DNA from: a virus
Reading direction: 5' to 3' (one strand)
IMG/VR virus record: IMGVR_UViG_3300027777_000104
Coordinates: 1-30,066 of that record
Length of the DNA stretch: 30,066 bases
Positions within the stretch are counted from its first letter, which is position 1. Each line of letters begins with the position of its first letter. Under the pieces are notes generated by a model. It had not been told where the DNA came from. It did no database searches and saw only the letters and a program-made list of their open reading frames with translations. A program made the position numbers and the translations under genes. This document shows, piece by piece, positions 3,001-30,066 of this stretch.

Positions 3001-4764
3001 TTACCAAATGTCCAACAAACAAATGAAAAACCAATTTTATCGGCAATTGATGGTATACAAACAAAAGTAGAATTTTGGGAAACCTTTAAAGCTTTTAATG
3101 ATAAATGGATTGCGGGTGGTAATTTCAAAGACAGAACATTATTCCAAGATGTTTTATTTTTAGATAGAGCCAATAGAGATATTGGTGATGTTGTTTATGT
3201 TGATATTTTTAAATTAAAAGATTTCTTTTCAGGAACAACATCTTTGGATACCAGATGTATTGATTTCATAAGTAAAATTGTTGCAGACAATCAATTTCAA
3301 ATGATGCCTATGCCGGCATACATTAATTTTTGGGGTGTTGGTGATGTAAAACAAGGTGAAACACCAAATGCAGAACCAACAAATGATATGGCTAATTCTT
3401 TGTTTGGGACATACTTGGATGTTGATTATAGATATTCATCTCCAAGATTTGTATGTTATTTCGCTGGAAAACCAAGTGAACATTTAGATATGCGAGAAAA
3501 TCCTGAATATAAATGGAAAACAGATGCTTTTGATTTTACACCATCTAGAATGCCTTTAATTGATAAATTACAAGGAAAAAAAGATTGGGCGCAATCAAAT
3601 AGGGTTGTTGCGTTTAATGTTGATTTTGGAACACGAAATCAAAGTATGTTTTACAGTATACAATTAGACCAAAATGCTGCCGCGGCAACAACTGAAAGTA
3701 ATAGAGTTATTACAGATATGGGTAACCAAGCTGGCGGTACAAGGTCAAACACTCAAAACAATAGTTTATGGAATTATTATAAAAATAGAAGTTATGAATG
3801 TAGAGTTGAATCAATGGGTAATGCAATGATTCAACCAACAATGTATTTTAATTTACGTTATGTTCCAATGTTTAGAGGTCCTTATATGATACAATCTGTT
3901 GAACATTCAATAGATGCTGGACAATTTAGAACTTTTTTTACTGGAATTAGAATGCCATTATATTCATTACCATTAATAGAACAACAACTTATGACTCTTA
4001 ACACTAGTTTATTGTCTGAATTGGTTCAAGAAGTTAGAAGACTCAAAGAAACTGCAACAACAACTGCCCAAGCAAATGTTAATATTATTACAATTGGAAA
4101 TTCTATCCAACTAAATGGTAAATATACATCTTCTGATTCTGTTGAATGTCTTAAAGATATTCAAAACGCAAATGTTAGATATCAAAAATATACTGGTGTT
4201 GAAAATACAATTCAAAGATTATCATATGGTGATATGGCAACATTGTTAAAGGAAAATGTTAGTTCTAAACCAACTAGAGCAATGATATTCTACACATCTT
4301 ATATAAACGCACATGATGATAATAATTTTGTTACATTTAATTTTGATTTAGCGGGAACTCAATTAGGAGGTACGCCATATCCTAAAATATCATATGCTGA
4401 AAAAGAAGTGTTTTTTACAAAAACATATGCTTGTAAAACAAACCAAAATGGTACTACAACACCATTTGCCGTATTTACTGATTTTAAAAACTCAATAGAT
4501 TTTATGGAAAGTTATTATTTTAATAAACAAGCTGGTAGTTCAAAAAGTTTGATTAATGTTGGTACTAATAAGTGGATAACTAAACAAGATTATATTGATA
4601 GTATGGTGACAACATGGCTTGGATATTGGCCAACTAAAAAGTTTAATAATCCACAAGAAGAACAAACATTTATTGTTAAAAATCAAAATAAAGTACCTGA
4701 TTTGAAAAAAGCGGCATCTGAAGTAGTGGAATTAATGATAAAATTTAATCTTATAAGTTTTTAA
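1..4764 (+). CDS. Giant virion structural protein, possible tail hub (5' partial)
   Basis: The frame is open from base 1 and the first ATG (base 4) leads straight into what reads like mid-protein sequence, so the true start probably lies upstream; at least 1586 codons are present. Composition is rich in Asn, Thr, Tyr and Phe, as in phage structural proteins. Around residues 1286-1319 the segment GPYMIQSVEHSIDAG followed by QFRTFFTGIRMP resembles the end of gpD/gp27-type tail hub domains, where a 'VEHSI...F.T...G.R' pattern recurs. Residues about 1330-1350 look helical. The last ~100 residues (FAVFTDFKNSIDFMESYY, then an aromatic-rich helical tail) faintly resemble glucosaminidase-type peptidoglycan hydrolases, which would parallel the lysozyme domain of T4 gp5. 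Both assignments come from motif resemblance only. The stop is 24 bp before the next gene. Being a virion protein is likely; hub identity is tentative. Confidence 0.6.
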   Translation: MMAMIFASIEAFYRLMDDVHSDAWSKRLHPYRKAAVYGDDKSSTTTDSKNLTQTTNTPNLSNIPVYPWPQYYVQTNSDKGEQYELRYPGDPREISRTKANNFDVWPEVQFVEEYMKGLAQRSSPNNGPSGDNNEGRSINKITINAVEFPTTNIPYTDYDTVKFLYEIYERVLLATYWDRISTSGATSLSVYNTLSDLEVTNIRQSLTGTSPALTKTLKNIAFTPNNYLGVLRQISNDGTGTSWQQLIRGIFTSEYLRGITTKDYAILEDSLITAASTSTEKSVESLKNVDEYVKSTKSTTTDIMDVYPFRSDTWSKQHLANIKQVKYDRYTTKNSLYLNTTKKYITNYQVGVTDNNQNKPFVNNSFLTSQTPIVTTTFNNFYATRRATEVYLPTEGPLNYVNKTGNVFPEQTVSMLNTPFFINALQQDVQADRNNGVTSPYIKSAYLFLNSLPLSNLSERYFSLEPPDWSWGTDPNEGTYLDYIFATLTKFGGVHRLPYSWILKYGSIWHRYKTFVETNVDILDSVWTNVNAANLYDPATNSLETQYTFKNQKNENFNIVGQFNNTVSGNTISIMNLGFYPKLMNDVYYLIAGQDLITGYTNTEIQTAVNEGLNVGPISNSAISLQNGFDPNNPNRSLNMNVWFSSFDTKNSTKFKTYQQQKTILIPSFSTKYNQISSECFKQSTTGNTLTLTQEVFNNSAVYNGSARTFWTAPNYGYFELQSITKPNYNEYFKQIFTGDSKQNAVKFGQTYTKIEDVFGTFKKEILDSFETEFLNFTKSYNDLPADQISGSTFINRNFQSIMGEMLTIQYVDNTQSYDNYITTCNNSQRTKISDVINSFMNYNIAFKYGNPSNFDRKLFGSFTTLPEFKVVDPYTYKPYVQNTLPTDGGTLTFAQSYTLNPDAWKAMYTNVGFATQPGMTYSNNGSYYTDFFPTMNVEFSQANVVNFAPLIKIFGTQKLINNGTYNASSFTTAINDYYQSKNLFLNNTLTQLFSTLQKDLPNVQQTNEKPILSAIDGIQTKVEFWETFKAFNDKWIAGGNFKDRTLFQDVLFLDRANRDIGDVVYVDIFKLKDFFSGTTSLDTRCIDFISKIVADNQFQMMPMPAYINFWGVGDVKQGETPNAEPTNDMANSLFGTYLDVDYRYSSPRFVCYFAGKPSEHLDMRENPEYKWKTDAFDFTPSRMPLIDKLQGKKDWAQSNRVVAFNVDFGTRNQSMFYSIQLDQNAAAATTESNRVITDMGNQAGGTRSNTQNNSLWNYYKNRSYECRVESMGNAMIQPTMYFNLRYVPMFRGPYMIQSVEHSIDAGQFRTFFTGIRMPLYSLPLIEQQLMTLNTSLLSELVQEVRRLKETATTTAQANVNIITIGNSIQLNGKYTSSDSVECLKDIQNANVRYQKYTGVENTIQRLSYGDMATLLKENVSSKPTRAMIFYTSYINAHDDNNFVTFNFDLAGTQLGGTPYPKISYAEKEVFFTKTYACKTNQNGTTTPFAVFTDFKNSIDFMESYYFNKQAGSSKSLINVGTNKWITKQDYIDSMVTTWLGYWPTKKFNNPQEEQTFIVKNQNKVPDLKKAASEVVELMIKFNLISF

Positions 4765-8763: not shown

Positions 8764-9213
8764 ATGAAAGAAACAGATGTAATTAAAATGGAGTTCTTGA
8801 TTACCTTGAACAACAACATCGTAATCCAACGTTACTTTAACGTAAGAGATTACAATCCACAAGCTCGCAGTTCTATGGAATTGTATCAGTATCTAAGAGA
8901 CTTTGTAGAAGGGTTTGAGTACGGACAAAAGATGCGTTCGGTAGTATACCTTTTAGAAAACAAAGACGAAATTTTGGAGAACCCAAGTATCTTGCAAACG
9001 TCAAATACTGATGGTTCAGAAACATTTAACTTTTTAATAAAGGTAGGAGAACAGACAATTTGTCATAGAATTTTAGACGCGAAATTGTTCCCACCTAAAA
9101 TAAGATACACCGTAGATATACGCCAGCAAGTAAAAAGTGTATTAAAGGACTTAACTGACATTTTTTCTGATGAAAATTTTGTTACAAGTTACATGTCTTA
9201 TAGCTTAAACTAA
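8764..9213 (+). CDS. Unknown protein between rnh and the helicase gene (149 aa)
   Basis: I do not recognise this 149-residue protein. It appears soluble and mixed alpha/beta, with no signal peptide, membrane segment or obvious catalytic motif. Residues 10-27 look like beta strands (EFLITLNNNIVIQRYFNV), a helical segment follows (38-65, aromatic and charged), and the C-terminal third has another helix (QQVKSVLKDLTDIF). The start at 8764 is 7 bp after the rnh stop and the gene ends 35 bp before the helicase. That position makes a replication accessory role, such as helicase loading, an attractive guess, but no homology to T4 gp59 is visible. An internal ATG at 8791 is a possible alternative start. 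Confidence 0.75.
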   Translation: MKETDVIKMEFLITLNNNIVIQRYFNVRDYNPQARSSMELYQYLRDFVEGFEYGQKMRSVVYLLENKDEILENPSILQTSNTDGSETFNFLIKVGEQTICHRILDAKLFPPKIRYTVDIRQQVKSVLKDLTDIFSDENFVTSYMSYSLN

Positions 9214-9248
9214 TAGTATTTATCAAAACTAACAAGGGAATTTTAATT

Positions 9249-10637
9249 ATGTCAAACAAGAATTTTGAGTATCTAGGTAACACATTTCAACTACAATTAT
9301 TAAATCAGATTATCTTAGATAAGGACTTCTCACATTCTATCATTGATGTAATTGAACCCTCACACTTTGAAAACAAATATTTCAAAACACTTCTCCAATT
9401 GGTGAAGGAGTACTACGTAAAATACGATTGTACTCCATCATACGAAACACTTTCACAAATGGTGAAAAGTGAGTTCCCACAAGAGTTGATGTTGAAAATT
9501 CTAAACGACACTATCAAACAGATACAAACTGCGTCTATAGAAGGGGCATCGTTTGTACAAGAAAAATCATTGAAGTTTTGTAAACAACAAGAACTTCAAA
9601 AGGCAATCACCAAATCACAAAAAATACTTGATAGTGGAGAATTTGAAAACTATGACAAACTTGAAGAACTGGTAAGAAGTGCTCTCCAAGTAGGGGAAAG
9701 TGGAAACAAGATTGAAGATGTTTTCCAAAACTTGGATGATGTTTTGAATGAAGATTTCCGTCACCCAATTCCAATGGGAATTACGGGTATTGACAAGTTA
9801 TTAAAAGGTGGATTAGCAAAAGGTGAATTGGGCGTAATCTTAGCACCAACTGGCGTAGGAAAAACTACAGTCCTTACAAAAATTGCTAACTCAGCATTTA
9901 ATAACGGTTACAATGTACTTCAGTTATTCTTTGAGGACAATCCAAAAGTAATCCAACGTAAACACTTCACAATGTGGACAGGTATACCACCTGATGACCT
10001 CCCATTACACCGTGAAGAAGTTCTTGAAAAAGCACGTCAGGTCAAAGAAGAAATGACCAACAAATTGTTCTTGAAAAAACTACCTTCAGACCAATTTACA
10101 ATGACTCAAATCAAGAACATGATTAGAAAGATGGTTGCTGATGGACATAAGATTGATATGATTGTTTTAGATTATATTGATTGTATTGTACCTGACAAAA
10201 ATATGGGAGACGAATGGAAAAGTGAGGGTTCCGTTATGAGAGGTTACGAATCTATGTGTCATGAACTTAACGTAGTAGGATGGACCGCAACACAGGGTAA
10301 CAGAAGCTCTATATCTTCTGAGGTTGTTACCACCGACCAAATGGGTGGTTCTATTAAAAAAGCACAAGTTGGACACGTAATCATTTCCGTGGCAAAAACT
10401 TTACAACAAAAAGAAATGAATTTAGCAACCATCGCAATTACCAAGTCTCGTGTGGGTAAAGATGGGGTTATCTTTGAAAACTGTAAGTTCAACAACGAAT
10501 TGTTGGAAATTGATACTGAAAGTTCTGTTACCTTCTTAGGATTTGAAGAAAAGAAAGAAGAAAAGAACAGAGACAGAATCAAAGAACTTATGGAAAAAAG
10601 AAAAGAGCGAGTACAACAACCAAATAACTTTAATTAA
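9249..10637 (+). CDS. 41: Replicative DNA helicase, gp41/DnaB family
   Basis: At 462 residues this is very close to T4 gp41 (475). A helical N-terminal domain (~1-130) precedes a RecA-like motor. Walker A is APTGVGKT at residues 199-206, the catalytic glutamate is in FFEDNP (E229), Walker B is IDMIVLDYID at 302-311, and a DnaB H3-type segment (ATQGNR) follows. The hexamer unwinds the fork 5'-3' on the lagging strand and pairs with a primase, which is not encoded in this window. The C-terminus is highly charged (KKEEKNRDRIKELMEKRKER). ATG 9249 is preceded by AAGGGA nine bases upstream, one of the few Shine-Dalgarno-like sequences here. It lies in the replication cassette between the 149-aa unknown and the reductase. 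Confidence 0.92.
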   Translation: MSNKNFEYLGNTFQLQLLNQIILDKDFSHSIIDVIEPSHFENKYFKTLLQLVKEYYVKYDCTPSYETLSQMVKSEFPQELMLKILNDTIKQIQTASIEGASFVQEKSLKFCKQQELQKAITKSQKILDSGEFENYDKLEELVRSALQVGESGNKIEDVFQNLDDVLNEDFRHPIPMGITGIDKLLKGGLAKGELGVILAPTGVGKTTVLTKIANSAFNNGYNVLQLFFEDNPKVIQRKHFTMWTGIPPDDLPLHREEVLEKARQVKEEMTNKLFLKKLPSDQFTMTQIKNMIRKMVADGHKIDMIVLDYIDCIVPDKNMGDEWKSEGSVMRGYESMCHELNVVGWTATQGNRSSISSEVVTTDQMGGSIKKAQVGHVIISVAKTLQQKEMNLATIAITKSRVGKDGVIFENCKFNNELLEIDTESSVTFLGFEEKKEEKNRDRIKELMEKRKERVQQPNNFN

Positions 10638-10663
10638 TAAAAAAAAATAGTATTTTAAATAAA

Positions 10664-12523
10664 ATGGACGCATCACAAAAGATATTGTCGGACCTAACGG
10701 TCCACATGAAGTATTCAAAATTTATTCCTGAGTTGGAAAGAAGAGAAACTTGGGAAGAGCTTGTAACAAGAAACATGAATATGCACATTAAGAAATACCC
10801 CCACATCGCAAGTCAGATTGTGGACGTGTATCAATATGTGTATACTAAAAAAGTATTACCTTCAATGAGGTCAATGCAATTTGGTGGTAAACCAATTGAG
10901 ATTTCTCCAAACAGAATCTACAACTGTGCTTACCTTCCTATTGACCACTTGGACGCATTCTCAGAAACAATGTTCTTGTTATTAGGTGGAACTGGAGTAG
11001 GATACTCAGTTCAAAAACATCACGTAGAAAAATTACCTGAAATTAGAAAACCTAACCCAAATAGAACAAGAAGATTCTTGGTTGGGGATTCTATTGAAGG
11101 ATGGGCTGACGCAATTAAAGTGTTAATGAAATCTTACTTTGGTGAGCATTTGTCAACACCTGAGTTTGATTTTTCAGACGTTAGACCAAAAGGGGCACAA
11201 CTTGTAACATCAGGTGGTAAGGCACCAGGTCCTCAACCTTTGAAAGATTGTATTCACAAATTGAAAGGTATGTTGGACGCAAAAGAAGATGGTCAAAAAT
11301 TATCATCAATTGAAGTTCACGATATGATATGTCACATTGCAGACGCAGTTCTTGCTGGTGGTATTCGTAGAGCGGCTTTGATTTCTTTATTCAGTGCTGA
11401 TGACAACGAGATGATTGCTTGTAAATCAGGTTCTTGGTGGGAAACAAATCCACAAAGAGGTAGGGCTAACAATTCAGCGGCTTTGGTTAGACATAAAATT
11501 ACAAAAGATTTCTTCATGGACTTGTGGAAAAGGGTTGAAGCATCAGGAGCAGGTGAACCTGGAATCTATTTCACCAATGATAAAGATTGGGGTACTAATC
11601 CATGTTGTGAGATAGCATTGAGACCAAACCAATTCTGTAACTTATGTGAGGTAAATGTTTCTGACATTGAATCACAAGAAGATTTGAACAACCGTGTTAA
11701 AGCGGCGACTTTCATTGGAACACTTCAAGCAGGTTATACTGATTTCCATTACTTGAGAGACGTATGGAAACGTACGACTGAAAAGGAAGCGTTGATTGGT
11801 GTATCTATGACAGGTATCGGTTCAGGTGTTGTATTGGGTTATAACATGAAAGAGGCGGCTAAACTTGTTAAAGAAGAAAACTCAAGAGTTGCTGAGTTGA
11901 TTGGTATTAACAAATCGGCTCGTACAACTACTGTAAAACCTGCAGGGACAACATCTTTGACATTGGGAACATCTTCAGGTATCCACGCATGGCACAATGA
12001 TTATTACCTTCGTAGAATTCGTGTAGGTAAGAACGAGGCAATCTACCAATACTTGGCAATGTATCACCCTGAGTTGGTTGAAGATGAATTCTTCCGTCCA
12101 CACGACACGGCAGTTATTTCAGTTCCACAAAAATCTCCTGAAGGAGCAATTTTGAGAACAGAATCTCCATTCCAATTGTTGGACCGTGTTAAGAAAATCA
12201 CACAAGAGTGGGTAAGACCTGGTCACAGAACTGGTTCAAACACACACAACGTATCAGCAACAATCAGTTTGAAAAATGAAGATTGGGAATTGGCAGGTGA
12301 GTGGATGTGGGAAAACCGTGACTTCTACAATGGTTTATCTGTATTACCTCATGATGGTGGAAGTTACATTCAAGCACCATTTGAAGATTGTACAAAAGAA
12401 GAATATGAAAGATTATTCGCTAAACTTCACACAATTGACTTATCAAAAGTTGTTGAATTACAAGATAACACAGATTTGAGTGGTGAATTGGCTTGTGCTG
12501 GTGGGGCTTGTGAAATCAAGTAA
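10664..12523 (+). CDS. nrdJ: Class II (B12-dependent) ribonucleotide reductase, monomeric RTPR type
   Basis: The 619-residue protein carries the full cysteine set of adenosylcobalamin-dependent ribonucleoside-triphosphate reductase. C88 (IYNCAY) and C325 (FCNL) would be the reducing pair, C314 in NPCCE the thiyl-radical cysteine with E316 next to it, and C611/C616 (ACAGGACEIK) the C-terminal shuttle pair. The spacings of 11 and 5 match Lactobacillus leichmannii RTPR (C408/C419, C731/C736). It reduces ribonucleotides to dNTPs for phage DNA synthesis using coenzyme B12, with no need for a small NrdB subunit or oxygen. It is shorter than the 739-aa Lactobacillus enzyme. T4 itself uses class I NrdAB, so this is a different solution. 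An extra cysteine (C315) sits beside the radical cysteine. The start ATG 10664 is 26 bp after the helicase stop. A hairpin follows its stop. Confidence 0.9.
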   Translation: MDASQKILSDLTVHMKYSKFIPELERRETWEELVTRNMNMHIKKYPHIASQIVDVYQYVYTKKVLPSMRSMQFGGKPIEISPNRIYNCAYLPIDHLDAFSETMFLLLGGTGVGYSVQKHHVEKLPEIRKPNPNRTRRFLVGDSIEGWADAIKVLMKSYFGEHLSTPEFDFSDVRPKGAQLVTSGGKAPGPQPLKDCIHKLKGMLDAKEDGQKLSSIEVHDMICHIADAVLAGGIRRAALISLFSADDNEMIACKSGSWWETNPQRGRANNSAALVRHKITKDFFMDLWKRVEASGAGEPGIYFTNDKDWGTNPCCEIALRPNQFCNLCEVNVSDIESQEDLNNRVKAATFIGTLQAGYTDFHYLRDVWKRTTEKEALIGVSMTGIGSGVVLGYNMKEAAKLVKEENSRVAELIGINKSARTTTVKPAGTTSLTLGTSSGIHAWHNDYYLRRIRVGKNEAIYQYLAMYHPELVEDEFFRPHDTAVISVPQKSPEGAILRTESPFQLLDRVKKITQEWVRPGHRTGSNTHNVSATISLKNEDWELAGEWMWENRDFYNGLSVLPHDGGSYIQAPFEDCTKEEYERLFAKLHTIDLSKVVELQDNTDLSGELACAGGACEIK

Positions 12524-12722
12524 TATAAATCAAAAAGATAATAATGAAGGGGAGGAGGTAAAACTTCTCCCTTCTTCATTTTATATTGAAGATGAAAAAT
12601 ATGTCTTTACCGAAGAATTTCATTTAAGTCGTGGATACTGTTGTGGTAATGGTTGTAGACATTGTGCATATTTTCCTAAATACAAAAAAGGAAATACAAC
12701 TATATTTATAGATAATGGCTAA
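12480..12722 (+). CDS. DUF5522-like cysteine-motif small protein
   Basis: The conserved part is residues ~31-80: FYIEDEKYVFTEEFHLSRGY followed by CCGNGCRHC, which matches my memory of the small DUF5522 family common in Bacteroidota, whose function is unknown. The CC-x3-C-x2-C cluster could bind a metal ion. The start is uncertain. ATG 12480 overlaps the reductase by 44 bp, while GTG 12510 overlaps by 14 bp, and no in-frame ATG lies after the reductase stop. The first ~15 residues of the ATG version are encoded by reductase sequence and may not be translated. The 3' end overlaps the gp25 start by 8 bp, so the gene links the replication cassette to the baseplate genes. Its role in the phage cannot be inferred. 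Confidence 0.7.
   Translation: MVNWLVLVGLVKSSNINQKDNNEGEEVKLLPSSFYIEDEKYVFTEEFHLSRGYCCGNGCRHCAYFPKYKKGNTTIFIDNG
12546..12574 (+). terminator. Possible terminator hairpin after the reductase gene
   Basis: An 11-bp stem with one bulged G and one G-U pair (12546-12557 with 12564-12574) closes a GTAAAA loop, preceded by an A-rich run and followed by TTCATTTTAT. It starts 23 bp after the nrdJ stop, the usual place for a terminator, but lies inside the DUF5522-like reading frame and lacks a clean T tract. It may attenuate rather than stop transcription. Confidence 0.4.
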
Positions 12723-15095: not shown

Positions 15096-18000
15096 ATGTC
15101 CAAAACGTATAGAGTTCGCACACAAGTTGGTGTTGATAGACAAGTCAACATTGAAATAGACCAAGATTTTGAACAATTGGAGATATTATCTCTGAAAGTT
15201 AGGTCTGAAGAAGTTTATACAAGAATGTGTGCCGATTATGGTGTCATAGCTGGTCGTGTTATTGCCAATGGTGGTTATGGTGTACCAAATGTTAGATTAT
15301 CTGTTTTCATACCATTAACCGATGATGATGCCAATAATGAAATTATTTCATCTCTTTATCCTTATAAAAATGTTAATAATGATGTTAATGCTGATGGTTA
15401 TAGATATAATTTACTACCATATGTTCAACAACATACAGGACACGTTCCAACAGGCACTTTTCCAACAAGAGAAGATGTACTTACAAATCCAGCCTTAATT
15501 GAGGTTTATGACAAATATTATAAGTTCACCGTTAAAACAAATGGTAGTGGTGATTATATGGTTATGGGAGTTCCAATTGGAACTTACACTTTGGTTATGG
15601 ATATGGACTTATCTGACATCGGTCCTTTTTCTTTATCACCACAAGATTTAGTTAGAATGGGTAGAGCAACTGCCGACCAAATTGATGGTGGTACTTTTAA
15701 AAGCTCAACAAATTTATATGAACTACCACAGATTGTTAATATTAATCAAACGGTAAATGTCCAACCATTTTGGGGTCAACCTGAAATTTGTCAAATTAGT
15801 ATTGCCCGTCATGATTTTGATTTAAGAAAGGCAGGTATTGAAATTAAACCAACATCCATATTCATGGGGTCTTTGGTAACAGGAGTTAATGACGAATCAA
15901 TTACCAAAAATTGTAAACCACCAAGAGAAATGGGTAACCTTTGTAATTTACAAACAGGTCCTGGTGAAATTATTGGTATTAGACAAACAATTTATCAAGA
16001 TACTGATGGTAAACCAATCTTAGAAAAGGCAACCTTACCAAGAGGGGGTAAAGTGATTGATGCTGATGGTACTTGGTTAATGGAAGTCCCAATGAACTTA
16101 GATTATGTTACAACAAATGAATTTGGTGAAACAATTTTTAGTAAAGACCCAAGTATTGGTATTCCAACAAAAGGAAAATATAGATTTAAAATAAAATATA
16201 CACAACCTGCTAATTTTGAAACTAATGAAATTAGAAGAGGTTATTTCTTGGTTCCAAACATTAAAGAACATGGTTGGACCAATTCAACGTCAGACCCATA
16301 TTATTCTGTAAATGTTTTAGGTACACCATACAAACAAGTATTGGGTTCATATTATTTTGGACTTGATTGGAGTGGATATACAAACCCACAAGAAGCAATT
16401 GATTGTAAAGATACTTTTTATGAGTTTCAATACAATAAAGTTTATACAGTCGCTGGACTTATTGACCAATTTAAAAAAGGAACAAACAGGTCTAAATTTA
16501 TTGGTATTAAAGAAATTACAGACCCATCATGTGCTAGTGAAAACAATAGGTTCCCTGCTACAGATGGTGTTAGAAATTTTGATTTTTTTGTGTTCTTGGT
16601 TAATAATTTAATATTACCAATATTTTCAATGTTATTAATTGTGTTGGCACCAATATTACACGTGTTATCAATTGTTTGGCAAATATTAAAACCTTTAATT
16701 GCTTTCATATATGGTTCACTATTATTAATAATTTCGGGTATCTGTAAATTTATTAATTGGTTAGGTGCGGATTTAGATTGTCCTGAGTCAAAAAGTTTTA
16801 GTGATATATTTGATATGTTAGGTAATCCATTTGTTAAAATAACATTACCAAATTTAAGTTATCCTGATTGTCAGGCTTGTGATTGTGCGTCAGCATCTGT
16901 ACCGGCAGATAATCAACAAGCGACATTAGTTAAAAATGCATCACAACAAAACTCAACATCATTAAATTCAGACTTTTTTACAATATCTAATTGGGGTACA
17001 GCAATCAATCAACATAAACAAGTTTTTGCAGGACAAGCTGACGACAATTGGGCAATTAGAACACCAATTAGAAATGTAGATAGTAATGATTATGATTTTA
17101 TTGATAATTTACCACCGTGGGAAGTCATCAATAAATTTAATTTAAAATCAAAGTATTTTGATACTGATAAATATGCTGGTTCAAATAGAATTAAAGTTCA
17201 AGTTGAACCGGCAATTAACCCAACAAAAAATCACTTTGATAATGTTATGGCGGTATTTGTTGACCCAAATACTGAAAGTTATTTTCCGTCTGGTAAATTA
17301 ATATCTTTTTCACAACCAAATTTATCAAAAGACCCAAACTTTTCAGGTTATACTTCAGGATACACTACAGGTATAACAGGTACAACAACTATTGGTGGTA
17401 GTGTTACTGTAAATTTTGCTAATCCCGCAAATTCAACAGGTTTACAAACAATAACTTATAGTTTATCAGGTTCAACAACTGGAACTACTAAAGAATATAG
17501 ATTCCCAACAGATATTGAATACTTCCAAGTAATTACAGGATTAACGTATAATGATTTTATAAGTCAAAATTCAAATACATTATCAACCAGTCTTTTAAAA
17601 CAATTACAACAACAGATTAAATTATATCGTAAAGACGGAAAAGAAGGTGAAGATACTTATACCAATTATCTTAATGAATGGGTTGGAGGTAAACTTAGTA
17701 TGGTCTTTATGGTTAGAGGGGTTGACCCACAAAGTGGAAGAAAGAAAATTAAATATGATTTATCAAGAATTTTTGGGTATAATACCTATGGTAATAAAAT
17801 AATTGAAGGGGAATTCTTTTTAAATATACCAGTTCAACCAGGCCTTAAAACTGTTAGACATAATTTATTAAAGGCAAATACTGATAATCAAAATGGTCAT
17901 TATCTTTATTATCCATCTTATCAATATACTGCAGGAACTCAATATTCTGCGTATACAACAACTTTACAATCTTATTATTCTTCATTAGATACATCACAAA

Positions 18001-19868
18001 TTAATTCTTATTTACCAACAAATAGTAATGGTAATAGTTTATTAACTAGTAAAATGGTTGGTACTGGAACTCAAGGTCAATTATTGGCTTATAGTAATAC
18101 TCCATCAGGAATTGCTTATGATGGATATGAATATATTGAAGGTGGTTCATTTATTTGGTATGGTAATTATAAAGGTGGAAATCACAAAGGGGTAAATAAT
18201 AATTTAAAACCACAATTTTATTACGCACCATCTTACGCAAGATACAGTCCAGGTAAAATGGTTGTTTATAGTAACCGAATGGTTATGAGAGCAGATAGAC
18301 TACCAACAGGTACTGTATTAAATACTGTTGACAATAACGCATTTGCTTGGCAAGCTTCAAATAGTTTAACATATAATTTTTACAGTGATAGTGGAAGTGC
18401 TGAAACAGTAGTTCCTGTACCAAGTTTTTCTTTTGGTGATGGAACAGGTGGCGCTGATGTTGTCACAGGTGGAACAATGAATAAAGTATTAGAATCATTT
18501 TCTTGTCCTGGTATGGTTGATTTAAATTGCTATCAAGGTGTTGGTACTAATTTTACGGTATTACCAGCAACAAATGATTGTAATACAAATGTTGGTGGAA
18601 AAGTAGTTGTTAATGGATGTTATAGTGTTGTTAATCAACCATTAGCTTCTTTGTTTGGTAGAAATAATGACTTTGCATTAATAGCTCAATGGGTTGCAAG
18701 ATTTAGACTAACATTTGCTATTTGTAGAGGTGCATTATCACACACCTTTGTAAATTCATGGGTTAATGGGACTTTATTTGCATTTCCATTTGAAAACAAT
18801 GTATTTTTTGACTCTAATAATAAACCATATGTTAGAACGGTTAATCCAATCACGGGTAATGTTAAATATACTTTTTGTGGTGACGTTTTAGTGTTTGACC
18901 CCGAGTCAAGTAACTATTATTATCGTTCAAGTCCTTGGAATGGTAGTGACTTTATTGGTAGAGATTCAGCAATGGGTTCATCTAATGAGGTTAATAAAAA
19001 AGAATTCATGTTTCCAACAACAATACTTGATTTAGGGCCAAAATATATTTGGACTAAAGATGTTAACTTATCGGCAGATTACTATGGATATCAGATGGAC
19101 AATTTAACATCAACAAGTTGGAGTAGTGAAAAAGACTTATTACAATTGTTTGTTATATCAAGATTGGTAAATGCCAATTATTTAAGTGAAATTTTTGGGG
19201 CTGGTAATGGTTCTGTGGCTTCTTTATTTAGTAGAAATGAAGATAGGGTTGATGGCGATTACGCTCAGATGTTACAGATTAATTCTCAGTACGGTATTGT
19301 TCCATTTACTGCAGAAAATTATGTTGACGACCCAAACAATACATTAGACAATCCGATTTACGTTAGTGGTGATGCGGATGGTAATCCTGTATTTGGTGTG
19401 TTCTATAGTGGATTTACACAAAGTAGAGATTTAATATCGCCAAGAAGATTGGATAGAAATTTAACAGGTAGTACATTAATTGCTGACTACTTGGGAACTA
19501 AATCACAAGAGGTTCCATTTTATACTTGGTACAACAATGGTTGGGGTAATCCATCACAACCTTCAATATTTGGTAATCAAGAAAACACTTGGTCTAGTGC
19601 CAAATTTACATATTCGGCTTACAAACAAAAATATCAAAGTATTGATAGATTAAATGCTCCTATGTTTATTGGTGGAAATCAATACATTCAAAACCGTACA
19701 GGGTATATTTTCCAAAGAAATGCTCAGGGTGGAAACGAAGCCGCAATTCTTCCTGGTACATTAAATCAAACAACATTAACAAGTGCACCTTGGTACTTCT
19801 ATTTTGGATTGAAGAAAGGTTCATCAGCAATGGATAAATTTACACAACTTTATATTGGAACAATATAA
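15096..19868 (+). CDS. Giant virion protein with internal hydrophobic segment (1590 aa)
   Basis: The N-terminal ~170 residues contain a segment like carboxypeptidase-regulatory beta-sandwich domains (GVIAGRVIANGGYGVPNVRL ... GDYMVMGVPIGTYTL). Residues ~497-556 are a striking hydrophobic stretch (from DFFVFLVNNLILPIFSML to LLLIISGICKFINWLG), enough for two or three transmembrane helices, flanked by a Cys-rich patch (CQACDCAS). The rest is rich in Tyr, Asn, Ser and Gly, as expected of a tail or fibre protein. I do not recognise a family. Its place after gp6 corresponds to T4 gp7, but the gpI/gp7-like stretch is in the 985-aa protein instead. The start at 15096 follows a 72-bp gap; the stop shares a base with the next ATG (TAATG). 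It is probably a baseplate or peripheral tail component. Confidence 0.75.
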   Translation: MSKTYRVRTQVGVDRQVNIEIDQDFEQLEILSLKVRSEEVYTRMCADYGVIAGRVIANGGYGVPNVRLSVFIPLTDDDANNEIISSLYPYKNVNNDVNADGYRYNLLPYVQQHTGHVPTGTFPTREDVLTNPALIEVYDKYYKFTVKTNGSGDYMVMGVPIGTYTLVMDMDLSDIGPFSLSPQDLVRMGRATADQIDGGTFKSSTNLYELPQIVNINQTVNVQPFWGQPEICQISIARHDFDLRKAGIEIKPTSIFMGSLVTGVNDESITKNCKPPREMGNLCNLQTGPGEIIGIRQTIYQDTDGKPILEKATLPRGGKVIDADGTWLMEVPMNLDYVTTNEFGETIFSKDPSIGIPTKGKYRFKIKYTQPANFETNEIRRGYFLVPNIKEHGWTNSTSDPYYSVNVLGTPYKQVLGSYYFGLDWSGYTNPQEAIDCKDTFYEFQYNKVYTVAGLIDQFKKGTNRSKFIGIKEITDPSCASENNRFPATDGVRNFDFFVFLVNNLILPIFSMLLIVLAPILHVLSIVWQILKPLIAFIYGSLLLIISGICKFINWLGADLDCPESKSFSDIFDMLGNPFVKITLPNLSYPDCQACDCASASVPADNQQATLVKNASQQNSTSLNSDFFTISNWGTAINQHKQVFAGQADDNWAIRTPIRNVDSNDYDFIDNLPPWEVINKFNLKSKYFDTDKYAGSNRIKVQVEPAINPTKNHFDNVMAVFVDPNTESYFPSGKLISFSQPNLSKDPNFSGYTSGYTTGITGTTTIGGSVTVNFANPANSTGLQTITYSLSGSTTGTTKEYRFPTDIEYFQVITGLTYNDFISQNSNTLSTSLLKQLQQQIKLYRKDGKEGEDTYTNYLNEWVGGKLSMVFMVRGVDPQSGRKKIKYDLSRIFGYNTYGNKIIEGEFFLNIPVQPGLKTVRHNLLKANTDNQNGHYLYYPSYQYTAGTQYSAYTTTLQSYYSSLDTSQINSYLPTNSNGNSLLTSKMVGTGTQGQLLAYSNTPSGIAYDGYEYIEGGSFIWYGNYKGGNHKGVNNNLKPQFYYAPSYARYSPGKMVVYSNRMVMRADRLPTGTVLNTVDNNAFAWQASNSLTYNFYSDSGSAETVVPVPSFSFGDGTGGADVVTGGTMNKVLESFSCPGMVDLNCYQGVGTNFTVLPATNDCNTNVGGKVVVNGCYSVVNQPLASLFGRNNDFALIAQWVARFRLTFAICRGALSHTFVNSWVNGTLFAFPFENNVFFDSNNKPYVRTVNPITGNVKYTFCGDVLVFDPESSNYYYRSSPWNGSDFIGRDSAMGSSNEVNKKEFMFPTTILDLGPKYIWTKDVNLSADYYGYQMDNLTSTSWSSEKDLLQLFVISRLVNANYLSEIFGAGNGSVASLFSRNEDRVDGDYAQMLQINSQYGIVPFTAENYVDDPNNTLDNPIYVSGDADGNPVFGVFYSGFTQSRDLISPRRLDRNLTGSTLIADYLGTKSQEVPFYTWYNNGWGNPSQPSIFGNQENTWSSAKFTYSAYKQKYQSIDRLNAPMFIGGNQYIQNRTGYIFQRNAQGGNEAAILPGTLNQTTLTSAPWYFYFGLKKGSSAMDKFTQLYIGTI

Positions 19869-23402: not shown

Positions 23403-24311
23403 ATGGCAACAGGAACATACGGAACAATTAGACCGGCAGATGTATCACCCGAAGACGTGAGCATCATAATGAATTACACACCATCAAGAGATGTAACAGA
23501 TAATTTTTTGTTAACTAGTCTTGACGCTGCGGCAATATTGAGACCATACTTTAATAACGCAAGTACTGGTGGAAACACAAACGAAATATTGGGTGGTCTT
23601 TATAATCTAAGATTACCTGCGGATGTATTTACTCAAATTGGTATATACACATTATATATTAGACCCGCCGAAATAAGAACAACAATTACTGATTGTGGTG
23701 TTTTATCGGCACTTCCAAACGTAAAAGGTATTGTTATTGATTTAAGTAATGTACCAAGCCAATATGTTAACAAATTTGTTGCCCAAGGACTTGTTGGTTT
23801 TAGAATAGAATATTTAAATGCTGATGGTAGTAAAATACCTAACTTTTTTAGAATTGTAACATCAAACTTTTATTGTGAACCAGTTATTCAAAACTTAACT
23901 AACACAGTACAAAAGGCGGTCAGATATAGATATACAGAAGGACAAACTAATTTGGTGTTCTGTACATTATCACCAAGCTCATCACCAACAAACAAACCAA
24001 ATGCAACTCCGTACATTGGACAACCAGCTCAAAGTATTATTTTATCAAACACATATTTTAACCCTTTGACTTTAGAAGTTCAAGTTTCGCAGTATGATAT
24101 TGATACATTGGGTATTGCCCTTTACGGTAATCAAACTAAATCTATGGAAGATGGTATCTACACTATCTATGACGCACAAAATAACATTTACCAACAGTAC
24201 AACTTGTATGAAATCAAGGATGACTTTAATAATTTGTTATATGAGGTTAAAGATAATAGAGGTACTAATATTGATTTTAGTAAAAGCTATCAAAATATCA
24301 CAGCACAATAA
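23403..24311 (+). CDS. Structural protein of unknown family (302 aa)
   Basis: I do not recognise this 302-residue protein. The N-terminus (TYGTIRPADVSPEDVSIIMN) looks like an exposed arm. The middle (residues ~65-145) has beta-rich segments (FTQIGIYTLYIRPAEIRTTI), and a Ser/Pro/Thr-rich loop (SPSSSPTNKP) lies near residue 195. The C-terminal third contains repeated Tyr/Asp/Asn segments (GIYTIYDAQNNIYQQYNLYE). It starts one base after the PKD-like gene and shares one base with the 985-aa gene (TAATG). Its conserved position in a coupled structural chain supports a baseplate or tail role. Confidence 0.68.
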   Translation: MATGTYGTIRPADVSPEDVSIIMNYTPSRDVTDNFLLTSLDAAAILRPYFNNASTGGNTNEILGGLYNLRLPADVFTQIGIYTLYIRPAEIRTTITDCGVLSALPNVKGIVIDLSNVPSQYVNKFVAQGLVGFRIEYLNADGSKIPNFFRIVTSNFYCEPVIQNLTNTVQKAVRYRYTEGQTNLVFCTLSPSSSPTNKPNATPYIGQPAQSIILSNTYFNPLTLEVQVSQYDIDTLGIALYGNQTKSMEDGIYTIYDAQNNIYQQYNLYEIKDDFNNLLYEVKDNRGTNIDFSKSYQNITAQ

Positions 24312-27268
24312 TGGCTAAAAAGTTCATACCAAATACAGCGGCTTCAGGAGCAGGTACACCCTTTGATAATATTGTAGGGTTACAAACTGTGCAAGGTGGT
24401 GGACTTACACAAGGTAACTTTGAATTTACTCAAGGAATATCTGAAAAATCAAATCGTAATTTTAATATTGGTGTGTTTCAATCACCAGTTTCATTAGAAG
24501 ATTTAAATTTAGATTCTGTTAATGCTTCAAGAGAATTAATCGCTAAAGAATATAGAGTTTATCCAAATTATGATTTATCACAAGTAACCAACTTTACAAT
24601 CTTTGGTTCACTACAAAAAAGATTTGAAGTTTCTGTTCAAAGAATACTTAATTTTTTCCCTGCGGCTATTGAAGTTGATGCGTTGTATTATGATTTTACA
24701 TCGGGTGAAACAGCGTATAATATAACTTACGATTCAGTTGCAAATGAAACAGAATTAACAATTAATGTTACAAGAATTAAAAATCCATTCTCAATTGATT
24801 ATTCTGTTAATTCAAAAATTAATTTACAAAATAGAGAACAAGAGTTTTCACCATTAAGAGATTTAACAAACAGATATAGAGATTATAGTTTTGTTGTTGA
24901 TGAACGTCCATATCAAATTATTGATTTTACATCATCATCAAGTTTATATAGTGGAATTATAAAAGTAATCATTATTGGTAACCCGTTTAGTGGTGATGGT
25001 TCAACATACAAGTCATTGGTAATTAGACCAAATGATTATTATGTTGAAAAAGCATTCTCTGAAGATTTTGACCAAATAGAACAATTTTTATTAAACAGAT
25101 TAGTTGTCCCAATTTATACGGCAACATTTAATGTTCCTGTTGATTCGGACAATGGTGTTGCCTCAATACAAAATAAAAATGTTACATGGCAAAAAGATGG
25201 TTTATGGAATTTAGATATTAGAACTCAAAGTTTCACAAATTATTTGGAAACATTAAATGTTATTGGTTCTGAATTTGACGCATTTAAAACTAACTTAATT
25301 GCTCGTTTCTTAGTGACAGAATCTTTATTAGAGTTTGATACTAATGACCACAGAGTTGCGAAGGTATTACAAATTTACGGAAGAAGTTTTGACCAAATTA
25401 AACAATTCATAGATGCTTTGGCATATATGAATTCTGTAAACTATACGCCAGGAAATGATATCCCATCAATGTTGTTAAAAAACTTAGCACAAACATTAGG
25501 TTGGAGTACAAACATTTCACCAATTACAAATGAAAACTTTTTAGATTCAGTTTATAACTCAACAGGTGTAACACAATATGCTGGTTATTCAAGAGAGTAT
25601 ACACCATCAGAATTAAACTATCAGTTTTATAGAAATCTTATTCTTAACTCGGCATACTTGTTTAAATCAAAAGGAACAAGACGTTCAGTTGAATTTACAT
25701 TAAGATTAGTTGGAGCTCCTGAGGCGTTGATTGAATTTAACGAACATGTATATGTTGCAGACCAAAGAATCAACATGAAACAATTCAATGAACAGTTTGC
25801 TCAAATTACGGGTGGAACTTATGTTGATAATATAACCACGTATGTGTCTGGTACAACATATTCAATTTACGGAACACAATATACCGCATTTACATCAACA
25901 ACTGAATTATTTTTAGTTGACCAAGTTAGAGATGATTATCCTGTTGATGAATTTGGTTATCCAAAAGCACCTGTTAATACAGATGACTATTATTTTGAAA
26001 AAGGTGCTGGTTGGTTTGAATCTACACCACAACATAGAAGTCCGCAAGTTGTAAACGTAACTCAGTCAGTCTTTACTGGTAATAGTCCAAATGTTCAAAC
26101 AACATTACAACCATTTACATATGGTCAGGAATATTTTAATAAGTTTAGAAAATTCCCTTATATGAATTTGGGCTATAATTTAAAATTAACTCCTGATAAT
26201 AAAAAGAGCTGGCAACCACCAGCATATAGAGTTAGTACAGAATCGGGGTACAATGCTTATTACTACGCAGCAAGTGATAAGTTAGTATTGAATGCCAAAA
26301 ATGTGGATTTATTTATGAATCCATCTCAGGGTATCTTATATAATGTTTGGAAGATGTCACGAGAAAATAATTATCCAATTCCAAATTCAGGTATGTCACC
26401 GACATATCCAAGTTTGGGAACATATGATTGGACATTTATTAATCCTGAACCAAATAAAAAGACATTCTTTGAATTTGCTCAAACATATGTTAATTCAACA
26501 ATTAATGCGAGAAATAGATGGTATTCAAATGATGGTAAAACAAGTGGTTATCCTGAATTGTTAAACATTTATTACAATTACTTATTATCAGAACAAAATG
26601 TTGGAATTCCAAATGATAATTTAACATATCAAAAATTAATTGAATATGTTGAAGGTCTTGGTCCATATTGGATTAGATTAACACAACAAATGATTCCAGC
26701 ATCCACAATATGGAATACTGGTACTCGTTTAGAAAACTCATCACTCCAAAGACAAAAATATGTTTATAGAAGACAAAGAGGTTGTCAGTTAATACCTGTA
26801 ACAAATGACCCATGTTTGGCAAGTGGTCAATTGTTCTCATATGATTGTACAACTGAAAATACAACATGTGCAATTTATCCTTGGATTGGGGTTAATACTT
26901 CAACGGTTAGTTCATTTTCTGAAATTTTATATAGTGTTCTTTATTCTTATTTGAATAGTCAAGGTTATCAACTATCTGATTGTTTAACAAACACATTATA
27001 TTCTCAATGGTACGTTAATGTTAAAATTGACGGAACAACATTGATTAATACCAAATTCTTTGAAGGTTATGGAACATCTCAAGTTCCAAGCAATAGTCAA
27101 TGGAAGTCGGCATTAATATTAAACCTTTCACAATTGATAAATGATGGTTATTATTTCTTTGTGAATGGTAATAGTGTAACAGTATATAACTTAACATGTG
27201 CTACAACAACATCTGTTAGTACATTACAAATAAACGTTGGTGTCAATATTGATATCACTTGTCAGTAA
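24311..27268 (+). CDS. Large baseplate protein with gpI/gp7-like stretch (985 aa)
   Basis: Residues ~325-475 resemble the P2 gpI family of baseplate wedge proteins: helical FLVTESLLEFDTNDHRVAKV, a mid-part with LLKNLAQTLGW, and the motif AYLFKSKGTRRSVEFTLRLV, where 'KGT..S...L...G' is typical. T4 gp7 has a gpI-like part, so this is the best candidate for the gp7 counterpart, completing the gp25-gp6-gp7 core. The flanking N- and C-terminal regions are beta-rich. The last ~110 residues form a separate domain, with QVPSNSQW near residue 930 and a DITC terminus, that recurs in the following gene. The start shares one base with the previous stop. A structural role is very likely; gp7 equivalence is inference. 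Confidence 0.75.
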   Translation: MAKKFIPNTAASGAGTPFDNIVGLQTVQGGGLTQGNFEFTQGISEKSNRNFNIGVFQSPVSLEDLNLDSVNASRELIAKEYRVYPNYDLSQVTNFTIFGSLQKRFEVSVQRILNFFPAAIEVDALYYDFTSGETAYNITYDSVANETELTINVTRIKNPFSIDYSVNSKINLQNREQEFSPLRDLTNRYRDYSFVVDERPYQIIDFTSSSSLYSGIIKVIIIGNPFSGDGSTYKSLVIRPNDYYVEKAFSEDFDQIEQFLLNRLVVPIYTATFNVPVDSDNGVASIQNKNVTWQKDGLWNLDIRTQSFTNYLETLNVIGSEFDAFKTNLIARFLVTESLLEFDTNDHRVAKVLQIYGRSFDQIKQFIDALAYMNSVNYTPGNDIPSMLLKNLAQTLGWSTNISPITNENFLDSVYNSTGVTQYAGYSREYTPSELNYQFYRNLILNSAYLFKSKGTRRSVEFTLRLVGAPEALIEFNEHVYVADQRINMKQFNEQFAQITGGTYVDNITTYVSGTTYSIYGTQYTAFTSTTELFLVDQVRDDYPVDEFGYPKAPVNTDDYYFEKGAGWFESTPQHRSPQVVNVTQSVFTGNSPNVQTTLQPFTYGQEYFNKFRKFPYMNLGYNLKLTPDNKKSWQPPAYRVSTESGYNAYYYAASDKLVLNAKNVDLFMNPSQGILYNVWKMSRENNYPIPNSGMSPTYPSLGTYDWTFINPEPNKKTFFEFAQTYVNSTINARNRWYSNDGKTSGYPELLNIYYNYLLSEQNVGIPNDNLTYQKLIEYVEGLGPYWIRLTQQMIPASTIWNTGTRLENSSLQRQKYVYRRQRGCQLIPVTNDPCLASGQLFSYDCTTENTTCAIYPWIGVNTSTVSSFSEILYSVLYSYLNSQGYQLSDCLTNTLYSQWYVNVKIDGTTLINTKFFEGYGTSQVPSNSQWKSALILNLSQLINDGYYFFVNGNSVTVYNLTCATTTSVSTLQINVGVNIDITCQ

Positions 27269-27301
27269 TGAATAACATAAACCAAATATATTTAGTAAAC
27301 A

Positions 27302-27781
27302 ATGGCATTAGTTAATAAGTTATTTTATAGTTGTGCATTTGGTTTAGGTGTTACAAAAACATTTCAAATTGACACAGCAGGAACTTGGGTTAATAACCAA
27401 AGTAGTGTTATATATTCTGGTGATGGTGCTTGTTATGTTTATACAACTAGTTCATCAATATCTTCACCATTACAATCATACGCTACTGAAGAATATAGTA
27501 CTTGTTCCGCCTGTCAATCGGCAAACCCTGATAATTTATATTATACATTTTCGGCTTGTTGTAATAACACAACATTCAGTTTAAGAAGGGGGGATATTAG
27601 TTTAGAACCTTATTTTTATGATGGGGCAATTTTTTATTGGAACATATCTCCAAGTAGTGGAGGTACACCATTGTTTAGTGGATGCACAACTGCAATAACT
27701 AATTACACTGGAACAACAATTTACTCTGGTAGTTCTTATTCAAGGACTTATATACAAGGTTGGTCGGATTGTGCTGCGTGT
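27302..27781 (+). repeat. Two tandem cysteine modules at the fibre N-terminus
   Basis: Residues ~1-77 and ~80-164 look like diverged copies. Each begins with an aromatic strand and a Cys (LFYSCAFG and LYYTFSACC), has a central Gly-Cys or Ala-Cys site (GACYVY and SGCTTAI), and ends in a paired cysteine motif (YSTCSAC and WSDCAAC). The Cys pairs may form disulphides or bind metal. The role, perhaps attachment to the baseplate, is inferred from the N-terminal position. Confidence 0.5.
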
Positions 27782-30066
27782 GAAGTGTATGCTCCTTGTG
27801 TTGTAACACCAACACCAACTTCTACACAAACGCCAACACCAACTCCTACACCAACACACACTCCAACACCTACAGTTACTCCAACAATTGGTTTAACTTC
27901 AACACCAACACCTACTATAACTTCAACACACACACCAACTCCAACTATTACACCAACAATTAGTGGTTTTGGAAATGGAAATACATTTGGTTATGAATTA
28001 TATGTGACTGGTACTTGTGAGAATGGTGTGGGTAGTATTGAAATTGTTGCCACAGGAGGAACACCACCATATACATTTAATTGGTATGACCCAAATCTTG
28101 GAACGGGAACATATAAAACTAATTTATCGGCAGGAACTTATTTAGTAAGAGCAAATGACTCAACAGCACCTGTAAATAATGAGTTTTACATTAACGCCAC
28201 AGTATCTTCAGGAATATCTTTAAACTTTATATCAGAAACATATACAACTTGTGGATTAAATAATGGTTCATACACTGTTTCCGCGACAAGTGATAATAGT
28301 GAAATAACTTATTATCTATACGATTCTTATGGGCTTATAGATACACAAACGACAAACAATGATTTAGCGGTTTTTAATAATTTATCGGCAGGAACTTATA
28401 ATGTTATTGGTGTAAGTGCTGCTGGATGTTCAGCATCTACTGAGACTTGTATTATATACTCATCAAATACGTTAGAGTATGGATTTTATATTGTTAATGA
28501 TACACAATGTGCTAGCCCAACAGGTAAAGTTTATGTAACAGGTGTTACAGGTAATTCACCATTCACATATTTGTGGAATGACGGAACTACTGGTACATCA
28601 ATAACAGGTTTAACTAAAGGTATCTATGAAGTTACGGTAACATCAGGTGATGGTTGTGTTTTATCACAAACTGCTGTTGTTGATTACGTACCGTCATTAG
28701 GACTTGGTTCTTGGAGTGCACAAACACCTGGTTGTTTTGAAGCCAACGGTTCGTTATTACTTACAATCACAGGTGGAACGGGACCATTTTATTACTCGGC
28801 ATCTACAGGTTATGTTGTTGTAACATACGCAACACAATATTTGTTTTCAGGGTTAAGCGCTGGTGTGTTTAGTGTTGCAGTTACAGACGCCGCATTATGT
28901 AAAGTAGATTTTGGAACCACATTGGCAACGCCAGGAACATTTACAAGTGTTAATATCAATGCGACAAACTCATTCTGTAGTAAAACTGATGGAAAAATTA
29001 GTATTGATATTCAAGGAGGAACGGCACCATTTACATATACAATTATAAGACCTGATTCAACTACAACAAATATTACAACAAATTCAAATACTCATATATT
29101 CACAAATTTAGAAAGTGGTGATTACACAGTATTTGTTTCTGACAACTCATCTTGTGGTTATAGTCAAGACATTACAATTTTTGCCGAAAATAAATATACC
29201 GTAACAACAAGTACCGAAGCAACTGCTTGTGGTATGAATAACGGACAAGCAACAATCACACTTTCAACAGGTGGAACCGCTCCATATCTATATCAATTAA
29301 GTAATGGTGTTTCAATTAACTCAAGTTTATCTGCAACAACATTTAGTTCATTAGGTGGTGGTGATTATACATACACAGTAACAGACGCTGATGGTTGTGT
29401 ACAAACAGGAATAGTTTCAATTGTGACAGGCACACCAATTTTATTTTCATTATACCCAACAAGTTGTGGAACTGGTTCGGGTGGAACAATGACAGCCCTT
29501 ATTTCATCAGGAACACCACCATTTACATTTACTTGGTCTGATAATGTTTCAGGAAACCCACAAGAAATAACTGTATCAGGTTTAACGGGTGGAACATATA
29601 CATTAACATTGGTTGATGCTAGTGGATGTACTCAAACAAGAACATCAAACGTAAGTTGTAATCCTATTGAAACGACATACCAAATTTTTACAATGTGTGA
29701 AAGTGATTTCCAATACACATCAGGAACCAAACATGGTATCCTTCAAATGTTAAATGATGGTTACTATGATTTAACATCAGGTAATACAAATTGTTTATTG
29801 AGTGCGACAACATTTGTGGCACAAGTTGAAGTTAGTGGTATGACATATAGTCAATCATTCTACACAGGTACAACTCTATTAGATATACCAACAGACACTC
29901 AATGGTATGATACTGTTGAAACATTATTATTAACAGTTCCCGGTGTTTCATCGGTGACAATTGATACATCATCAAGTGTTGTTACAATACAAACAAATGG
30001 TGTACTTGCCAACCAACAAGTTATTATAGACTTGATAATCCAATATGATATTAATTGTGTAAGTTA
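27302..30066 (+). CDS. Modular tail fibre/adhesin with SprB-like repeats (3' end at window edge)
   Basis: The frame is open from ATG 27302 to the window end (921 codons plus TA). In order it has two Cys modules ending in CSAC (C71/C74) and CAAC (C157/C160); a Thr/Pro linker (169-219); seven SprB-like repeats (231-786, pattern 'C...NG...GG..P..Y.W...L..G.Y.V.V.D..GC'); and a C-terminal domain (~800-921) resembling the end of the preceding 985-aa protein. SprB repeats are known from Bacteroidota gliding adhesins, so a host-contact fibre is the likely role. No signal peptide is seen. The last complete codons read NCVS and the next bases are TA. Because the related domain upstream ends DITCQ-stop, TAA or TAG just past the edge is likely. 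It starts 33 bp after the previous stop, without a Shine-Dalgarno. Confidence 0.85.
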   Translation, partial: MALVNKLFYSCAFGLGVTKTFQIDTAGTWVNNQSSVIYSGDGACYVYTTSSSISSPLQSYATEEYSTCSACQSANPDNLYYTFSACCNNTTFSLRRGDISLEPYFYDGAIFYWNISPSSGGTPLFSGCTTAITNYTGTTIYSGSSYSRTYIQGWSDCAACEVYAPCVVTPTPTSTQTPTPTPTPTHTPTPTVTPTIGLTSTPTPTITSTHTPTPTITPTISGFGNGNTFGYELYVTGTCENGVGSIEIVATGGTPPYTFNWYDPNLGTGTYKTNLSAGTYLVRANDSTAPVNNEFYINATVSSGISLNFISETYTTCGLNNGSYTVSATSDNSEITYYLYDSYGLIDTQTTNNDLAVFNNLSAGTYNVIGVSAAGCSASTETCIIYSSNTLEYGFYIVNDTQCASPTGKVYVTGVTGNSPFTYLWNDGTTGTSITGLTKGIYEVTVTSGDGCVLSQTAVVDYVPSLGLGSWSAQTPGCFEANGSLLLTITGGTGPFYYSASTGYVVVTYATQYLFSGLSAGVFSVAVTDAALCKVDFGTTLATPGTFTSVNINATNSFCSKTDGKISIDIQGGTAPFTYTIIRPDSTTTNITTNSNTHIFTNLESGDYTVFVSDNSSCGYSQDITIFAENKYTVTTSTEATACGMNNGQATITLSTGGTAPYLYQLSNGVSINSSLSATTFSSLGGGDYTYTVTDADGCVQTGIVSIVTGTPILFSLYPTSCGTGSGGTMTALISSGTPPFTFTWSDNVSGNPQEITVSGLTGGTYTLTLVDASGCTQTRTSNVSCNPIETTYQIFTMCESDFQYTSGTKHGILQMLNDGYYDLTSGNTNCLLSATTFVAQVEVSGMTYSQSFYTGTTLLDIPTDTQWYDTVETLLLTVPGVSSVTIDTSSSVVTIQTNGVLANQQVIIDLIIQYDINCVS
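27806..27958 (+). repeat. Thr/Pro-rich linker-coding tract
   Basis: About 51 codons alternate Thr and Pro (PTPTPTPT, with Ser, His, Ile and Val variants), written mostly as ACA/ACT and CCA/CCT. The DNA is therefore a degenerate 6-bp repeat that may slip. The product would be a stiff, extended spacer between the cysteine modules and the SprB-like repeats. A GVGV-type reading frame on the opposite strand is an artefact of this tract. Confidence 0.85.
27992..29659 (+). repeat. Seven tandem SprB-like repeat units
   Basis: Unit starts lie at about 27992, 28217, 28472, 28697, 28940, 29195 and 29438, each 74-85 codons long. Each unit carries an early Cys, a Gly-rich turn (such as GGTPPYTFNW or GGTAPFTYTI), an 'L.aG.Y.V.V' strand and, in most, a closing 'D..GC'. 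Unit 1 lacks the final Cys. The copies are divergent at the DNA level, pointing to old duplication rather than recent expansion. Confidence 0.75.

Follow-up and report, generated by a model that had tools for sequence, protein, structure and literature searches.

The genes for a baseplate-region protein and a repeat fibre

The window, that is, the whole stretch of 30,066 bases that was analysed, is a virus record (G000) that stops at the window edge, and the stop codon of its last gene was inferred from relatives. Two neighbouring genes occupy this end of the window (Table 1), with 33 bases between the end of P0001 and the ORF of P0002. For P0001, searches of Pfam and PHROG gave no family, and its gene is located 3' of genes resembling gp25 and gp6; the assignment of both P0001 and P0002 as virion proteins rests on this gene neighbourhood. 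The shaft of P0002 matches the SprB repeat of Pfam (PF13573) in three stretches, with 76.9 bits against a cut-off of 28 and an E-value of 8.9e-22. Elsewhere in the window, an 80-aa ORF (12480-12722) carrying a DUF5522 domain (E 2.6e-15) lies directly 5' of the gp25-like gene, and two very long ORFs, at 4-4764 (1586 aa) and 15096-19868 (1590 aa), had no Pfam or PHROG match above the cut-off.

Table 1. Positions in the window of the two genes, the copies of the shared domain and the parts of the fibre.
Feature	Position	Strand	Remarks
P0001, 985-aa baseplate-region protein	24311..27268	+	ORF ending DITCQ-stop; copy A at its C-terminal end
Shared domain, copy A	26915..27265	+	P0001 residues 869-985 (~117 residues)
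Cys 891, copy A	26981..26983	+	Invariant (100/100 sequences); aligned to Cys 831 of P0002
Cys 984, copy A	27260..27262	+	Invariant (100/100 sequences); aligned to Cys 919 of P0002
P0002, SprB-repeat fibre	27302..30066	+	921 aa read (27302-30064), ending DINCVS, then TA, the start of the predicted TAA stop
Optional N-terminal module (residues 1-160) and Thr/Pro-rich linker (161-228)	27302..27985	+	Missing from many relatives
Constant shaft, about seven SprB-type repeats (residues 229-785)	27986..29656	+	PF13573; kept in every relative compared
Shared domain, copy B	29738..30064	+	P0002 residues 813-921 (~109 residues)
Cys 831, copy B	29792..29794	+	Invariant (88/88 sequences)
Cys 919, copy B	30056..30058	+	Invariant (88/88 sequences)

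Comparison of the fibre with its relatives separated a constant part from variable ones. Residues 229-921 of P0002, which comprise the shaft and the terminal domain, were kept in every relative compared, and many of the relatives consist of this core alone (~711 aa). The domain lies within five residues of the chain end in 88 of the 97 complete fibres and at the very end in nearly all relatives of P0001, while the other nine fibres extend 31-422 residues past it through a Thr/Pro-rich linker and a further module. Considering that these nine run on and that the core is present in all relatives compared, the domain is part of the constant core and not simply the end of the chain. The repeat region itself (27986-29650) resembles LR756502.1:517063-518361, from a 642-kb metagenomic phage, at 31% identity and in six places; no other record of the phage collection had a comparable repeat region, and the search for the shared domain found nothing there. 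A literature search on SprB repeats in phages turned up nothing related.

Sequence and predicted fold of the C-terminal domains

An earlier note, made from the letters of the window, had proposed that the C-terminal ends of the two proteins share a domain, and that a profile-profile search and a comparison of AlphaFold models would bear on this proposal. Direct comparison of the two ends by BLASTP was weak and its top segment was off register (E 5e-5), which made profiles necessary. One alignment was therefore used for each family, with 43 sequences for the P0001 family (A1) and 41 for the fibre family (A2), and hhalign of A1 against A2 gave a P-value of 6.9e-6 over 94 columns, collinear as far as the final cysteine. 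A second alignment of both families gave 4.4e-6 over 127 columns, again reaching the last cysteine, and a reciprocal profile search of about 3,000 ORFs recovered the C-terminus of the other family in register, with best E-values of 8.7e-7 and 2e-4. Besides the two cysteines, a proline is aligned between the copies (P926 of P0001 and P863 of P0002) and is present in 100/100 and 87/88 sequences, respectively, so that the motifs lined up in the earlier note coincide with conserved columns (C891/C831, P926/P863, and C984/C919).

The possibility that this likeness reflects chance, or a composition common to virion proteins rich in Thr, Ser, and Val, draws on the weak and off-register BLASTP result and on the identity of just 18% between the families. 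As a control, slices 100-130 residues long were taken from nine genes of this neighbourhood, the remainder of P0001 and P0002 among them, and compared with each profile; three of the 78 slices overlapped the two domains and were omitted, leaving 75 per profile. Two of the nine control genes, the gp25-like and gp6-like genes, were represented by single sequences because the DNA of the relatives stops short of them. The best of the 75 unrelated slices reached 0.012 (A1) and 0.017 (A2), compared with 1.3e-5 and 2.7e-6 for the cross pair. The distance between values of at least 0.012 for slices of the same genes and about 1e-5 for the A1/A2 pair, the reciprocal and in-register hits, the aligned invariant C, P, and C, and the same predicted topology obtained from separate alignments make an origin by chance or composition very improbable. 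Taken together, these profile comparisons confirmed a resemblance above chance and show that the C-terminal domains of P0001 and P0002 are homologous, and the common domain proposed earlier was borne out. The off-register BLASTP segment had raised the idea that the domain is itself internally duplicated, but the sequence does not support this: when one half was compared with the other by hhalign, the values within the families were 0.18 and 0.49, against 0.0084 and 5.8e-5 for corresponding halves compared across the families.

Structure prediction pointed in the same direction. AlphaFold2 models were built from the separate family alignments and compared by the order of their elements. The model of the P0001 domain (mean pLDDT 85) has a helix at 14-28, strands at 36-51 and 54-65, a helix at 73-90, and strands at 92-97, 100-105, and 117-129, and that of the P0002 domain (pLDDT 81) has a helix at 27-39, strands at 43-58 and 61-70, a helix at 79-92, and strands at 96-102, 107-112, and 121-134, with one additional strand at the front. 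The order of elements is the same in both models, and each copy is predicted to be an alpha/beta domain of about 110-120 residues with the topology alpha-beta-beta-alpha-beta-beta-beta. In the models, one cysteine of the pair lies where the first long strand begins and the other where the last strand ends, and it is our guess that the two invariant residues face each other.

When the P0001 domain was used as a Foldseek query against viral predicted structures, the top match was a 714-aa protein annotated as 'SprB repeat' from an uncultured Caudovirales phage (UniProt A0A6J5LD72), with E 2e-4, TM 0.71, and r.m.s.d. 2.9; it ranked above a protein of 985 aa from an uncultured phage. The length of A0A6J5LD72 is like that of the core fibre, and the fibre shaft described here is likewise made of SprB repeats (PF13573); the shared terminal domain falls outside that Pfam repeat. 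A likeness of the fibre model to the 'little finger' of Y-family polymerases (VIA Z up to 7.0) was set aside, because this score lies within the range of models with no clear match and the other copy reached only 4.1. Baculovirus polyhedrin, a T7-type nozzle, and the other rows returned by Foldseek were weak and were not used.

Distribution, age, and the end of the fibre gene

Profile searches of nine related contigs of 111-326 kb found two copies of the domain in each, in these two genes only, and no third copy. The genes for P0001 and the fibre are adjacent and on the same strand in 97/97 distinct pairs; partial loci excepted, the loci in which no fibre was found were those whose sequence broke off no more than 1.8 kb from the first gene. 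Beyond this group, no relative of the shared domain was found among cultured phages, in the phage collection, or in the 84,980 prokaryote genomes sampled, and sequence searches of the PDB returned best E-values of 0.03-1.7, all to unrelated proteins. The domain is a new family, previously unnamed, and it fits a pattern of tail evolution that is already understood.

Mean identity was 55% within family A, 58% within family B, and 18% between A and B, and the split between the two families received a support of 1.0. Since sequences of different families are so much less alike than those within each family, the duplication is old and predates the divergence of these phages. Thus, of the duplication within the locus that the earlier note had considered, common ancestry stands, while a recent event at the locus does not agree with so ancient a split. 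Among distant relatives of P0001, the domain showed 38-47% identity compared with 54-62% for the remainder of the protein.

The shared domain had also been taken to predict a stop codon, TAA or TAG, at the window edge. The nearest relative (L003) is 92.8% identical across the final 8.77 kb and was the sole match in an exact search with the last 21 bases of the window; its fibre ends AAT TGT GTA AGT TAA (DINCVS-stop), with the final A shared with the ATG of the next gene. The stop was TAA in 11/11 of the near relatives listed, and the 97 complete fibres ended with TGA in 62 cases, TAA in 35, and TAG in none. Judging from these relatives, the fibre of the window very likely stops as TAA straight after DINCVS, which agrees with the TA read at the window edge, and TAG is unlikely. 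The predicted placement of the stop was therefore correct, but the argument behind it has about 10% exceptions: the nine fibres that continue past the domain make it an unreliable marker of the end of a gene, and a terminal domain common to neighbours is a good but unsafe guide.

Proposed role of the domain pair

We suggest, with a probability of about 0.5, that the domain serves in assembly or docking and was duplicated between two neighbours, the baseplate-region protein and the fibre. According to this proposal, which draws on analogy with other phages, the domain would serve in docking or oligomerisation: copy A would terminate the baseplate-region protein and copy B would cap the constant SprB-repeat shaft, and the two proteins could be joined by the pairing of like domains or be bound to one common partner in the virion. 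The domain pair derives from an old duplication within this phage group, and host-recognition modules would be added or swapped outside the core, at the N-terminus of the fibre or beyond the domain, via Thr/Pro-rich linkers. Docking is supported by the homology and the common predicted topology of the two copies, by their occurrence in exactly two adjacent genes, and by the fact that the domain belongs to the portion of the fibre that is always kept, with outer modules that vary among relatives; the faster divergence of the P0001 domain relative to the remainder of the protein counts against it, as the most constrained joint would predict otherwise.

Homologous domains in neighbouring tail proteins are known from other phages. 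In T4, gp10, gp11, and gp12 follow one another, have a common fold, and interact (PMC3004832), and the locus described here likewise has adjacent genes, of the baseplate periphery and the fibre, whose products have a common predicted C-terminal fold of common ancestry. However, the T4 flower motif consists of one helix, a three-stranded sheet, and two to three further strands, and its likeness is undetectable by sequence (PMC3004832), whereas two helices are predicted here, the likeness is detectable by profiles, and interaction is known for the T4 proteins. No chain of gp10, gp11, or gp12 appeared among the structure matches listed, although a missing row does not exclude a relationship. In phage CBA120, homologous XD domains are found in both TSP2 and TSP4, and an association of the two through XD2 has been proposed; XD2 and XD3 of these proteins and of T4 gp10 are beta jellyrolls near the N-terminus, with about 60 aligned residues (PMC8825819). 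These are likewise homologous domains of neighbouring tail proteins that act as assembly sites of fibres or spikes, a role that we infer for the present pair. In contrast, the domain described here is alpha/beta, spans about 110-120 residues, and is mostly C-terminal, and an XD-type jellyroll fold was ruled out by the two long helices in both models.

Trimer caps often sit at the very end of a chain. A private cap for trimerisation or folding registration, with neither a common partner nor contact between the two copies, would fit the terminal position of the domain in most relatives, but it is a less probable alternative, considering that the domain is internal in nine fibres, followed by linker and module, and that such a cap leaves the occurrence of copies in exactly two adjacent genes unexplained. 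A self-removed intramolecular chaperone seems unlikely, as the same nine fibres do not have the domain at the extreme C-terminus. It is less probable still that both domains are exposed on the virion and bind receptors or glycans: SprB repeats occur in cell-surface adhesins and the P0001 domain is more variable than the rest of its protein, but every relative compared retains the fibre domain, unlike the N- and C-terminal modules, which come and go, the core residues and the cysteine pair are invariant, and the structure searches gave no match to a lectin-like fold.

Returning to docking, a more specific version can be put forward only tentatively: in large uncultured phages that form a widespread lineage, an unnamed docking domain, recognisable by sequence and unlike known fibre-attachment folds, may pair like with like and hold an adhesin-type (SprB/Ig) fibre, with interchangeable modules at either end, on a baseplate protein. 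The domain pair is thus a candidate for the joint between fibre and baseplate, and two anonymous virion proteins of hundreds of environmental phage contigs become a testable pair with a marker profile. Moreover, the boundary between the constant part of the fibre and its exchangeable modules has been located, which is needed to find receptor-binding parts without cultured relatives.

Whole modules are gained or lost at either end of the fibre, always via Thr/Pro-rich linkers, in L034, L060, L020, L025, L036, L128, and L075; an HMA domain in L036 (E 0.0027) was below the cut-off and was discarded. In the fibre of L031 (10943-13258), about 45 inserted residues interrupt the domain, whose pieces lie at residues 588-652 and 698-772. 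Beyond the fibre of L003 lie a 115-aa ORF (8766-9113), whose ATG overlaps the fibre TAA, a Thr/Pro-rich protein of 420 aa (9188-10450), and a long GTSGTSG-repeat protein (10479-12251), which are likely to represent further fibre genes past the window edge.
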